The notes beneath the pieces are model-generated. The model did not search any database and was not told where the DNA came from. It was given only the letters and a program-made list of their open reading frames with translations. Both the position numbers and the translations under genes were made by a program. A stretch of 64,000 nucleotides of DNA from Bacteroidales bacterium (GTDB taxonomy: Bacteria > Bacteroidota > Bacteroidia > Bacteroidales > UBA932): positions 244,811-308,810 of the forward strand of contig JAFTBU010000049.1 of assembly GCA_017455065.1 (NCBI GenBank), in the 5' to 3' direction. Shown here one piece after another: positions 61,919 to 64,000 of this stretch (its first letter is position 1; each line of letters starts with the position of its first letter).

Positions 61919-62750
61919 GTTCAAGTCTTTTTCTTCCGGAAGCTGCGGCAACTGCTATTTCCTCGGGTCTTTCGCCGAGGACGGCAGTTGCTCCCATGGA
62001 GTGGTCATAGACACCGGGGTGAGCCTGAGGCGTATGAAGAAGGAGCTCGAAAGGGAGTCCCTGGGGACCGGGGCCTTCAGCGCCATACTCGTAACCCACG
62101 ACCACATGGACCACGTGCGTTCGCTGGGCTCGTGGTGCAAGCATCTCAAGAAGCCCGTCTGGGCCACCTACACCCTGCACGGGGCCCTCATCCACAACTA
62201 CATGGTCCATCCATGGATAAACGACTGCCGCAGGGTCCTGAAGGAAGACGACTGGAACGAGATCATCCCCGGACATGTCAGCGTCCGCCCCTTCATCGTC
62301 CCCCACGATGCCACCCAGACTTGCGGTTACGCGATAGTGATCGACGGCTACAGGTTCGTGATCATGACGGACATAGGCCGCATGACCCCGGAGGCTCTGT
62401 CCTACGCTTACAATGCCGGGACCGTGGTGGTAGAGTCCAACTACGACCCGGACATGCTCATCCACGGGAGTTACCCCTACCTGCTCAAGAGGCGCATCAT
62501 GGATGGCAACGGGCATCTGAGCAATCCTGAGTGCGCCGAGGCCATAAAGCAGTTCATGCATCCGGGGCTGAGGCATATCTTCCTCTGCCACCTCTCCGAG
62601 CACAACAACACTCCCGAGCTCGCCCTCGAGAGCGCCCGCGGCGCCTTGTCCGAATGGCTGGAAGCCCATCCCCTGCCCGACCCCTCCCTGACCCCCTGGA
62701 TCGTCGCCCTCCCCCGCGAAACCCCCTCCCAACTCTTCACCCTCGACTGA
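61911..62750 (+). CDS. MBL-fold metallohydrolase, YycJ/WalJ-like
   Basis: The start at 61911 (MIRFKSFSSGSCGNCYFLGS) is chosen; the upstream ATG at 61851 lies inside the TPR gene. 279 residues. The metal motif HDHMDH (about 59-64) and later His in IVPHDATQT and FLCHLSEHNN complete two zinc sites. The SSGSxGNC start is typical of the YycJ group of exonuclease-like metallo-beta-lactamase proteins. Cytoplasmic; nuclease activity is inferred from the family. Confidence 0.88.
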   Translation: MIRFKSFSSGSCGNCYFLGSFAEDGSCSHGVVIDTGVSLRRMKKELERESLGTGAFSAILVTHDHMDHVRSLGSWCKHLKKPVWATYTLHGALIHNYMVHPWINDCRRVLKEDDWNEIIPGHVSVRPFIVPHDATQTCGYAIVIDGYRFVIMTDIGRMTPEALSYAYNAGTVVVESNYDPDMLIHGSYPYLLKRRIMDGNGHLSNPECAEAIKQFMHPGLRHIFLCHLSEHNNTPELALESARGALSEWLEAHPLPDPSLTPWIVALPRETPSQLFTLD

Positions 62751-62871
62751 CCTTACCTGCTTCTCCGCCGGTGCCATGGCGGGTGCGGCCCCGCACCGCA
62801 TTTCAGAAAAGGGCGCGGACTCCTCGAAAACAAAGCACGGCTTTCCCGTGGGCGACCCCGGCGATTATGAA
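62751..62871. other. Non-coding stretch after the MBL gene
   Basis: No credible gene. It holds a short GC hairpin at 62782-62797 (GGTGCGG / CCGCACC) without a T-tract, which may still slow transcription. Confidence 0.4.
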
Positions 62872-63008
62872 ATTCGTCAGCCCGGCGACCATGGCATCTA
62901 CGGCCCTCCAGACGGGTTCCGGTGGGCTGACGCCCCCAATTAGGCCTCGTCAGCCCGGGCACCCTTGCTTCCAGGCACTTCTGTTGAGGGTTCGCCGGGC
63001 TGACGAAT
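62872..63008 (+). repeat. Hairpin pair 1, stem CGTCAGCCC
   Basis: Stems 62876-62884 / 62924-62932 (9 pairs, 39-base loop) and 62948-62958 / 62995-63005 (11 pairs, 36-base loop) share CGTCAGCCC. The outer arms 62872-62888 and 62992-63008 are a perfect 17-base inverted repeat. Confidence 0.85.
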
Positions 63009-63039
63009 GTCGAAATGTACGGCTGAGCCCTGTGGCCGC

Positions 63040-63194
63040 CAACCCGAAATTCAGAAGGCAACTCCACCTGCCTTCCAGGGCCCTCCAGGGGGTATTGGCT
63101 TGCCTTCTGCACCCATTTGGTCCTCGGAAGGCAAGCCGACCCTGCTTGCAGAGGCTTCTGTTGGGGGTCCGGCGTACCTCTGAATTTCGGGTTG
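63040..63194 (+). repeat. Hairpin pair 2, stem CAGAAGGCAA
   Basis: Stem 63052-63061 / 63100-63109 (10 pairs, 38-base loop). The motif returns inverted at 63127-63137. The outer arms 63040-63055 and 63179-63194 are a perfect 16-base inverted repeat that includes GAAATTC / GAATTTC. The second loop holds GGGGGT at about 63163-63168. Confidence 0.85.
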
Positions 63195-63223
63195 CCCGTT
63201 GGAACCTCAAACACAGAAAAGCA

Positions 63224-63363
63224 AAATTCACCTGGAAAAGTAAAGTGCCACAGAACGCATTGTAGGGCAGGTTGGAGTTCCAGGCGAGGCGATTTCGCCT
63301 CACCTGGAAGACAAGGATGCCTCCCAGGCCTCTGCAGAGGGGGTCGCTCTTCCAGGTGAATTT
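63224..63363 (+). repeat. Hairpin pair 3, stem CACCTGGAA
   Basis: Stem 63300-63311 / 63348-63359 is 12 perfect pairs around a 36-base loop. The outer arms 63224-63237 and 63350-63363 are a perfect 14-base inverted repeat. A further hairpin joins 63280-63292 with 63295-63307 (12 of 13 pairs). Confidence 0.85.
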
Positions 63364-63387
63364 CGGGTTGAACCTTAATGCACATCA

Positions 63388-63512
63388 CGGGAGCAGGGGG
63401 ATGCCACTGAGTGCACTCCAGGGGGTGGTAGCGCTCCAGGTCTCGAGTCGGAGCCGACACCGGGAGCACGGTGGTGCCCTACAGTGCACTCTGGGAGGGG
63501 GTCGCGCTCCCG
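63388..63512 (+). repeat. Hairpin pair 4, stem CGGGAGC
   Basis: Stem 63461-63467 / 63506-63512 (7 pairs, 38-base loop). A weaker 5-pair partner lies at 63390-63394 / 63433-63437 with a 38-base loop. The two loops are direct repeats around AGTGCACTC and GGGGGT. Confidence 0.75.
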
Positions 63513-63593
63513 CCCCGTTCATTAACGGCCGTACCGGTAAAGCAGCGCCCTAAGGTGATGGCCGCGGCCGTACCGGCACGAAAAGCTAGAAAA

Positions 63594-63653
63594 TCGATGG
63601 CGGAGCGCACCCCCAGCAGACACGCCTACAAGCGCGGTCAACTCCGCCATCGA
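63594..63653 (-). repeat. Hairpin 5, reversed orientation
   Basis: Perfect 12-pair stem TCGATGGCGGAG / CTCCGCCATCGA with a 36-base loop. The loop matches the family only when read on the minus strand (GCTTGTAGG, then GCTGGGGGT). Confidence 0.8.
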
Positions 63654-63711
63654 CCCCTTTTTGGCCTCGCTGGCTGGACCTACCTGTCCCAGAGTGCCCT
63701 GGAAGGCCGAT

Positions 63712-63769
63712 TCACTCAGCCATCGAATTTCACGTTCAGGCTACCTGGGGGAAAGACGTGGCTGATTGA
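63712..63769 (+). repeat. Hairpin 6
   Basis: Stem 63712-63722 / 63759-63769 pairs at 10 of 11 positions with a 36-base loop holding CAGGCTACCTGGGGG. The boundary word GAATTTC lies just inside the left arm. Confidence 0.7.
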
Positions 63770-63771
63770 GG

Positions 63772-63803
63772 CCGCCGCCGCAATATACGCCCTGCGGCGG
63801 CGG
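63772..63803 (+). repeat. GC-rich hairpin next to the IS end
   Basis: Perfect 11-pair stem CCGCCGCCGCA / TGCGGCGGCGG with a 10-base loop. The loop is unlike the others, so it may be a separate element. Confidence 0.6.
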
Positions 63804-63878
63804 GGGTTGCGGCACCACCGCCGCGCGATGGCGAGGCGCGGCGGTTACGGGCGGGCTGCGGTGGACTCTGGGGTGAAG
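63804..63878. other. Short GC-rich non-coding spacer before the IS
   Basis: Compositionally biased sequence with CCGCCGCG-like runs and no gene, ending at the insertion-sequence terminus. Confidence 0.4.
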
Positions 63879-64000
63879 TGACCCCCAAAAGTTGGACGGT
63901 TTATTCTTGTTAAGAAGCTTGAGATTGGAACTGAGTCCGGTACTGCACCGGGCTCTTTCCTTTTAGCCTCAGTTTGATTCTATCGTTATTGTAGTACCGG
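63879..64000 (-). mobile_element. One end of an IS3-family insertion sequence (truncated by the window)
   Basis: The terminus TGACCCCCAAAAGTTGGACG is the typical end of IS3/IS150-group elements, followed inwards by the 3' end of a transposase. The rest lies beyond the window, so the target duplication cannot be checked. Confidence 0.85.
63910..64000 (-). CDS. IS3-family transposase, C-terminal end only
   Basis: Minus-strand frame ending at TAA (63910-63912). The last 29 residues read RYYNNDRIKLRLKG, then KSPVQYRTQFQ, matching the conserved tail of the IS3 OrfB integrase (YN..RI...L.G.SPV.YR). The start is outside the window. Confidence 0.85.
   Translation of the reverse strand, partial: RYYNNDRIKLRLKGKSPVQYRTQFQSQAS

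Follow-up and report, generated by a model that had tools for sequence, protein, structure and literature searches.

What is the hairpin array near the end of this Bacteroidales sequence, and why do its stems change from one hairpin to the next while their pairing is preserved? The window analysed here is a stretch of 64,000 nt at the end of contig C34, in an assembly of 2.1 Mb (64 contigs, 96.7% complete). An initial annotation had described a hairpin array with covarying stems, and had considered a tandem structured RNA, sites for a single-strand-acting transposase or recombinase, or a REPIN-like element. Our results indicate that the array very probably consists of miniature, non-autonomous REPIN-like elements from five families, of the kind that adjoins RAYT-like HuH/Y1 genes.

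Five double units in the window

The array spans positions 62862-63740, 3' of an open reading frame (ORF) that ends at 62750, and consists of five units (U1-U5) of 155-165 nt each. Every unit comprises two hairpins on the same strand, 72-73 nt apart, with a common stem. A single stem word is used four times in alternating orientation, which gives the arm pattern a, a', a, a'. The five double units hold ten hairpins in total, part of them imperfect, and the weakest unit is U2, with a degraded last arm.

The coordinates of the units are given without strand. U1 (62862-63016; stem CGTCAGCCC; period 73 nt) has its arms at 62875-62883, 62924-62932, 62948-62956 and 62997-63005. U2 (63036-63200; stem CAGAAGGCAA; period 73 nt) has the termini CAACCCGAAATTC / GAATTTCGGGTTG and contains inverted repeat I9 (63040-63055 and 63179-63194, 100%); its register was set by hand and its last arm by construction, the automatic parse having chosen another register. 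U3 (63208-63372; stem CACCTGGAA) has a period of 72 nt and hairpins at 63228-63287 and 63300-63359. U4 (63374-63530; stem CGGGAGC; period 73 nt) has direct halves at 63388-63437 and 63461-63510 that are 76% identical. U5 (63584-63740; stem TCGATGGCGGAG; period 73 nt) has arms at 63594-63605, 63642-63653, about 63667-63675 and about 63718-63726.

A strict finder that required stems of 9 or more and allowed one mismatch, applied to positions 62700-63900, returned seven hairpins with stems of 9-12 and loops of 36-40 nt, at 62875-62932, 62947-63006, 63050-63111, 63228-63287, 63300-63359, 63594-63653 and 63712-63769. Four hairpins fall below this limit and are visible only with mismatches: the second of U2, the second of U5 and the two of U4, which have 7-nt arms. 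The last of the seven (63712-63769) was rejected as part of the array; in it, the 3' arm of U5 has its partner beyond the unit. A reading as a simple tandem repeat was also rejected, with two weak rows only.

A strict test for four-arm words (k=7) found two matches in the window, U1 and U3, and none in 20 dinucleotide shuffles. In a mismatch-tolerant scan with fixed geometry, U1, U3, U5, U4 and U2 ranked first to fifth within the 64 kb (scores 54 of a possible 54, 51, 47, 44 and 39), and the next two candidates in the window scored 37. This bears out the hairpin array of the initial annotation. What our analysis adds is that the stem is common to the two hairpins of a unit and that the units belong to separate multi-copy families.

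Copies in the genome and the outer repeats

The array region gave 57 BLAST matches in its own assembly. U1 has 10 distinct copies of at least 75% of its length in own-genome stretches, the window copy counted, and the same genome holds 14 copies of U2, 5 of U3, 15 of U4 and 14 of U5. U1-U5 are separate multi-copy repeat families with a common spacing, each with a stem of its own. Hence the earlier observation, that pairing is preserved as stems change, is true between families; the window shows it because five of them stand next to one another there.

Pieces of U1-U5 occur in 25 of 38 examined stretches, all 25 of which had been chosen for matches to the units; the 13 chosen for an outer repeat or a RAYT are without such pieces. 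The order U1-U2-(U3)-U4-U5 is held in 12 of the 17 stretches with at least two unit types, with one unit flipped in two of these 12. In L019, L031 and L033 the order is held by position, with U5 flipped, and in L020 and L028 it is not kept. Single units also lie inverted inside otherwise collinear composites, U2 at 4228-4378 of L010 and U1 at 446-597 of L015; in the latter the interior of U1 is inverted and the outer arms are unflipped.

On the right, the array is followed by a GC-rich outer repeat (OR) at 63768-63873 on the plus strand, which has 47 matches or pieces in its own genome. At other loci a further OR copy lies in inverted orientation to the left of the units, and at five stretches (L012, L013, L016, L018 and L028) inverted ORs stand on both sides of the unit series. 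The OR is interrupted by the end of an insertion sequence (63880-64000, without strand), which we take to be IS3-like or of the IS3 family, and the contig ends there. The same insertion sequence end recurs in L021 and L032. Because it interrupts the right OR, its place beside the array looks incidental, as had been supposed from the start.

Six OR copies carry an extra stretch of ~120 bp at one place, OR positions 57-68 (L010 3475-3595; L016 3438-3558; L028 3293-3413; L032 2401-2521 and 3164-3284; L087 1191-1311). In L016 this stretch appears, by eye, to be partly palindromic. Perhaps it represents a further layer of nested repeats.

Matches are frequent within about 1.5 kb of contig ends (C34, C12, C35, C44, C50, C63, C5, C24, C45 and others). 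Therefore, the repeats probably break the assembly, and their true copy number may be higher.

RAYT-like genes and their flanking units

In G015, a genome of the same genus, U4-like units stand on both sides of a Y1 transposase-like gene. The encoded protein has three relatives in the genome of the window, on contigs C28, C4 and C53. The RAYT-like gene G000:C28:30109-31032 lies between two U4-type units that are in direct orientation and 90% alike, and the U4 of the window matches these two units at 77-78% over 152-158 nt (E 6e-27 and 1e-29). Judged by this similarity, U4 is of the same family as the units flanking the C28 gene. The RAYT-like gene on C4 has a four-arm unit with a different stem upstream, and the one on C53 (G000:C53:10957-11754) has an OR copy about 110 bp downstream.

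The proteins carry a HuH motif and one catalytic tyrosine, the features by which RAYT / TnpA-REP proteins are recognised. H66, H68 and Y125 are invariant in 22 proteins; among 32 proteins, the histidine columns are kept in 31 and 32 and the tyrosine in 32, in a count in which L075 was read on the wrong strand. The proteins are about 300-310 aa long, with a HuH-Y distance of about 60 and the motifs [NT]H[VIL]H and Y[VTI]xxN. Pfam Y1_Tnp (PF01797) matched 8 of the 22 at E 0.01, with the G015 protein above the cut-off, and none of the three own-genome proteins at E 0.001. NCBIfam REP_Tyr_transpos matched 15 of the 22 at E 0.01, and two of its scores, 35.9 and 23.6, lie far under the cut-off of 80. 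A search of PDB sequences with the RAYT-like protein gave no match up to E 1. Going by these profile matches, the family is a divergent one.

Four-arm units are common beside such genes in related genomes. Exact four-arm words (k=6) gave 18 matches in 12 of 32 RAYT loci, compared with 3 in 640 shuffled loci. In the first set (L055-L076, at least 42% identity to the query RAYT; flanks up to 1.5 kb), a unit scoring at least 36 was present at 18 of 22 loci, the threshold having been taken from the set's own null of 320 shuffled flanks (99th percentile 35, maximum 38). Among more distant RAYTs (L077-L086), a unit was found at 3 of 10. The second set consists of the best 80 of 136 relatives in GTDB genomes, less 15 repeats of genes already used, which an exact 60-nt test removed and which leaves 65 loci, with near copies remaining. 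All its titles give Bacteroidales, Bacteroidia or a Candidatus name (two Candidatus Cryptobacteroides, one Candidatus Cacconaster), and many are from the rumen or other gut sites.

At a preset threshold of 37, a four-arm unit lay within 700 bp at 48 of the 65 second-set loci, and on both sides at 21. Units were found in 69 of 127 flanks (34 of 63 upstream, 35 of 64 downstream), compared with 1 of 468 shuffled flanks. The loci are not all independent, falling into 31 stem families, and the unit and stem counts include L163, which is a plain tandem repeat, and L178, which was read in the wrong register. Both were excluded from the sets for unit orientation, for G-T and A-C families and for the RAYT-stem correlation; L163 is among the 21 two-sided loci. 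By the scan, 17 of the 65 second-set and 4 of the 22 first-set loci were without a unit, and one of the latter, L059, has off-register units. The initial annotation had suggested looking for copies next to a common gene such as a Y1/HUH transposase, and such units are indeed there: U4-type ones at the C28 gene, and four-arm units of the same geometry at most second-set loci.

The units on the two flanks of a gene tend to share their stem. Stem identity averages 9.7 of 11 within a locus and 5.6 between loci, and agreement of at least 9 of 11 occurs at 17 of 21 two-sided loci compared with 25 of 420 comparisons between loci; at the other 4 of 21 the flank stems are less alike. At 18 of 21 loci, the similarity of the two flanking units is higher in direct than in inverted orientation. 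Orientation relative to the gene agreed with the consensus in 20 of 29 cases, and random flips reached up to 22, so that no bias is established. Because the stems on either side of a gene mostly agree and vary from gene to gene, the "covarying stems" are separate families, each apparently going with a transposase of its own.

A common stem was found in 88% of 17 RAYT pairs above 80% identity, in 39% of 33 pairs at 70-80% and in 1% of 396 pairs at 60-70%. At lower identity the values were 4% of 304 (55-60%), 8% of 226 (50-55%) and 3% of 59 (below 50%). Over 46 loci, RAYT and stem similarity gave an overall Spearman coefficient of 0.01 and a Mantel r of 0.20, which 7 of 2000 permutations reached. 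The RAYT-stem signal lies in the close pairs. The distant RAYT of L079 (39% identity to the query) lies between 198-nt direct repeats at 1166-1363 and 2550-2747, which are 87% alike. Other RAYT branches in the genus may have flanking repeats of their own.

The array itself appears, on the genomes compared, to be specific to its own lineage, because no whole-unit match to U1, U2 or U5 was found in 114 loci (112 RAYT loci, plus the array of G022 and one more stretch from the G015 locus) and no unit above the null level (scores 31-36) at the loci of the best 11 relatives of the gene upstream of the array. At none of the 114 loci do the flanks of a RAYT show a unit-length match to U1, U2, U3 or U5; for U3 there is a match to the G022 array, at 69% over 144 nt, and to RAYT flanks in pieces only. 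Any match at E 0.01 was present in 32 of 400 same-genus genomes, the own genome counted, and the longest outside it were U3-like (68-70% over about 141 nt, in G022, G281, G197 and G256). Absence is weak evidence here, with two candidates scored per same-genus genome in the 400-genome search and four in another. In other same-genus genomes, a unit scoring at least 38 stood at 6 of 17 further loci found via weak array matches. As to empty sites, the closest of 300 sampled same-genus genomes were 73-74% identical at two loci, which is too distant. The G022 array (contig C27; L051 2245-2904) has three units, starting at 2245, 2445 and 2770, with a stem near ATTCACCT; by eye, its ORFs include no RAYT-like one.

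Pairing, drift and the nature of the elements

The geometry of the units is nearly constant. We parsed 34 of 35 regions (five from the window, and 30 from RAYT-like gene flanks and one array), with paired arms allowed to be 35-75 nt apart and hairpins 12-50 nt apart; the first-set regions were hand-picked from repeat-bearing flanks, and L064a, cut short, was left unparsed. The period is 72 or 73 nt in 32 of the 34 units, with both loops of equal length; the exceptions are both L059 units, with 71 and 72. Loops measure 34-46 nt. Among about 290 pairing registers, only the three expected ones stand out in both sets, at 0.82-0.87 compared with at most 0.43 elsewhere (first set, 20 families) and at 0.76-0.84 compared with at most 0.46 (second set, 31 families).

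The stems alone are compatible with direct and with inverted order of the hairpins. As direct repeats, the loops have a mean identity of 0.41 at offset 73 (20 families) and of 0.19-0.32 at the remaining offsets between 64 and 83; as inverted repeats they reach 0.35 vs 0.36 shuffled in the first set and 0.37 vs 0.33 in the second. Outer and inner arms pair at 77-84% (37-40% shuffled), which is partly built in by the selection of units. The termini (66-78%, 50-61% shuffled) and the central spacer (59-62%, 43-46% shuffled) also pair and covary; they lie mostly outside the 9-nt windows used to pick units, and the shuffle null is likewise unaffected by the picking. The same arms serve two folds, T1 (two hairpins) and T2 (an outer stem plus an inner hairpin). 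T2 pairing reaches into the termini and spacer; T1 is without outward extension. Inward of T1 hairpin 1 there was nothing in the first set and 0.37 vs 0.30 in the second (reached by 1 of 200 shuffles), and loop-loop pairing was absent from the first set and slight in the second (0.37 vs 0.33). The consensus of 20 or of 31 families has no GT[AG]G columns at the hairpin foot; GGTGGTAG, with a GTAG foot, was seen only in U4 and the G015 units.

A functional RNA, or a single fixed strand, would be expected to tolerate G-T above A-C. In T2 pairing G-T and A-C numbered 26 vs 23 (29 families) and 65 vs 75 (66 units), and in the window's five units 3 and 6; on the gene strand in T1 pairing, G-T was slightly higher (34 vs 24 and 77 vs 67). 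Two-sided compensations in U1-U5 amount to 6, 10, 0, 0 and 0 cells, compared with 15, 38, 1, 13 and 19 other changed cells; with changes mostly uncompensated, a single family covarying inside the genome was rejected. Within families, arms and loops vary to a similar degree in U1-U3, and in U4 and U5 the arms vary less; the termini are the best-conserved part of the own-genome families. Because compensations within families are few and G-T is not clearly above A-C, these results argue against an RNA role, and the pattern fits mobile units that fold on movement and then drift better than an RNA in service. A structured RNA, or an RNA-level element such as a transcript-end stabiliser with its fold under selection, is therefore very improbable. 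It would agree with the strong folding predicted for both array strands, with the position 3' of an ORF and with the small G-T surplus in T1, but it leaves the linkage to transposase genes unexplained. Moreover, no Rfam family reached its gathering score within the window, on which ground a single RNA family was rejected, and the tandem structured RNA proposed earlier finds no support.

An alternative explanation might be that the ORs and U1-U5 together form a single fold-back, MITE-like element that was spread whole by another transposase, the link of U4 to a RAYT being a leftover of its origin. The kept unit order in multi-unit stretches, the inverted ORs on both sides at five of them and the OR close to the C53 gene are in line with this. 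However, single units and ORs are also found apart, the copies vary in the units they contain and the composite lacks sharp ends, and we regard this explanation as rather unlikely. Hardly any credence is due to tyrosine-recombinase attachment sites or integron-like cassettes: attC sites too act as folded single strands (PMC8266576, in its accessible text), but the gene linked to the units here encodes a HuH/Y1 protein and not a tyrosine recombinase. REPIN-like elements, or sites of a single-strand-acting transposase, are thus the best-supported of the readings first put forward, given the linkage to Y1 (RAYT-like) genes here and in relatives. What the data show are their architecture, repetition and linkage, and the matching stems on both flanks of most genes with two units.

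From these features we infer single-strand recognition, a cleavage site, mobilisation and spread as a composite. In the mechanism that we consider most likely, the DNA would become single-stranded, for instance on the lagging-strand template, and the cognate transposase would read the stem word and the fixed spacing. It would cut near the conserved termini, such as CAACCCGAAATTC / GAATTTCGGGTTG, and the unit would be copied or moved. The stem word would differ by transposase lineage and, on divergence, be replaced jointly in all four arms. U4 would belong to the C28 transposase of its own genome. Possibly, U1, U2, U3 and U5 are relics of, or passengers on, earlier systems, and may have spread as a composite bounded by ORs. 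The units may have gathered singly before the composite spread, or the composite may move by way of its ORs.

The ends of IS200/IS605 elements are same-strand hairpins bound by a Y1 transposase, and our units resemble them in having same-strand hairpins. They differ from such ends, as far as described in the accessible text of PMC8266576, in that the unit is without a gene and both hairpins lie within 165 nt. Parallels also come from the REPIN / RAYT systems (REPtrons) of Proteobacteria (PMC3116915, PMC3686654, PMC8266576; REPIN definition in PMC6006769). As in the parts of these sources available to us, multi-copy non-coding palindromic doublets flank a Y1 HuH gene and recur (counted here in the own genome only), and REP type tracks transposase type. 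Unlike REPINs as described there, our units have loops of 34-46 nt, a period of 72-73 nt and direct rather than inverted hairpins, and they lack GT[AG]G as a general foot. A general foot of this kind and two REPs in inverted order were both looked for and not found, for which reason the array is not a strict REPIN, and it most likely belongs with the RAYT/REPIN kind by its probable way of working.

TnpAY1 subclass 2.6 is mostly from Bacteroidetes, and its genes have on their flanks 'atypical secondary structures' that lack GT[AG]G and have copies elsewhere in the genome (PMC6006769, accessible text). Our units share these properties. The proteins differ from the table in that source, which for subclass 2.6 gives a median of 179 aa, a HuH-Y distance of 82 and the motifs NH[LIV]H and YIH[QN]NP, so that the proteins described here depart from the subclass in length, spacing and motifs. 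TIRtrons (TIRYT) have terminal inverted repeats as flanks, some with a GGGGWSAS motif (PMC3733652, accessible text). They are alike in that RAYT-like genes lie between long, partly self-complementary repeats, some of them multi-copy, and unlike in that the flanks here are mostly direct copies of a four-arm unit. In the accessible text of PMC6006769, PMC3733652 and PMC8266576 we found no description of the long loops, direct hairpins and ruler, and a literature search whose scope lay mainly outside subscription journals and papers' supplements found nothing closer.

With less than even confidence, we tentatively propose a distinct Y1 branch in Bacteroidales, whose target would be a fourfold stem word on a 72-73 nt ruler that is rewritten as a unit whenever the enzyme diverges. 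One genome would then hold several address codes, and the array would be five of these, four of them orphaned. The RAYT loci offer dozens of natural transposase-target pairs. Identity between the enzymes is mostly 45-70%, and their stems are largely unrelated at a constant geometry. Such pairs allow direct study of the way in which a folded single strand is read by a HuH transposase, and of joint change in enzyme and target. They may also give concrete form to the 'atypical secondary structures' reported beside Bacteroidetes RAYTs in the accessible text of PMC6006769.
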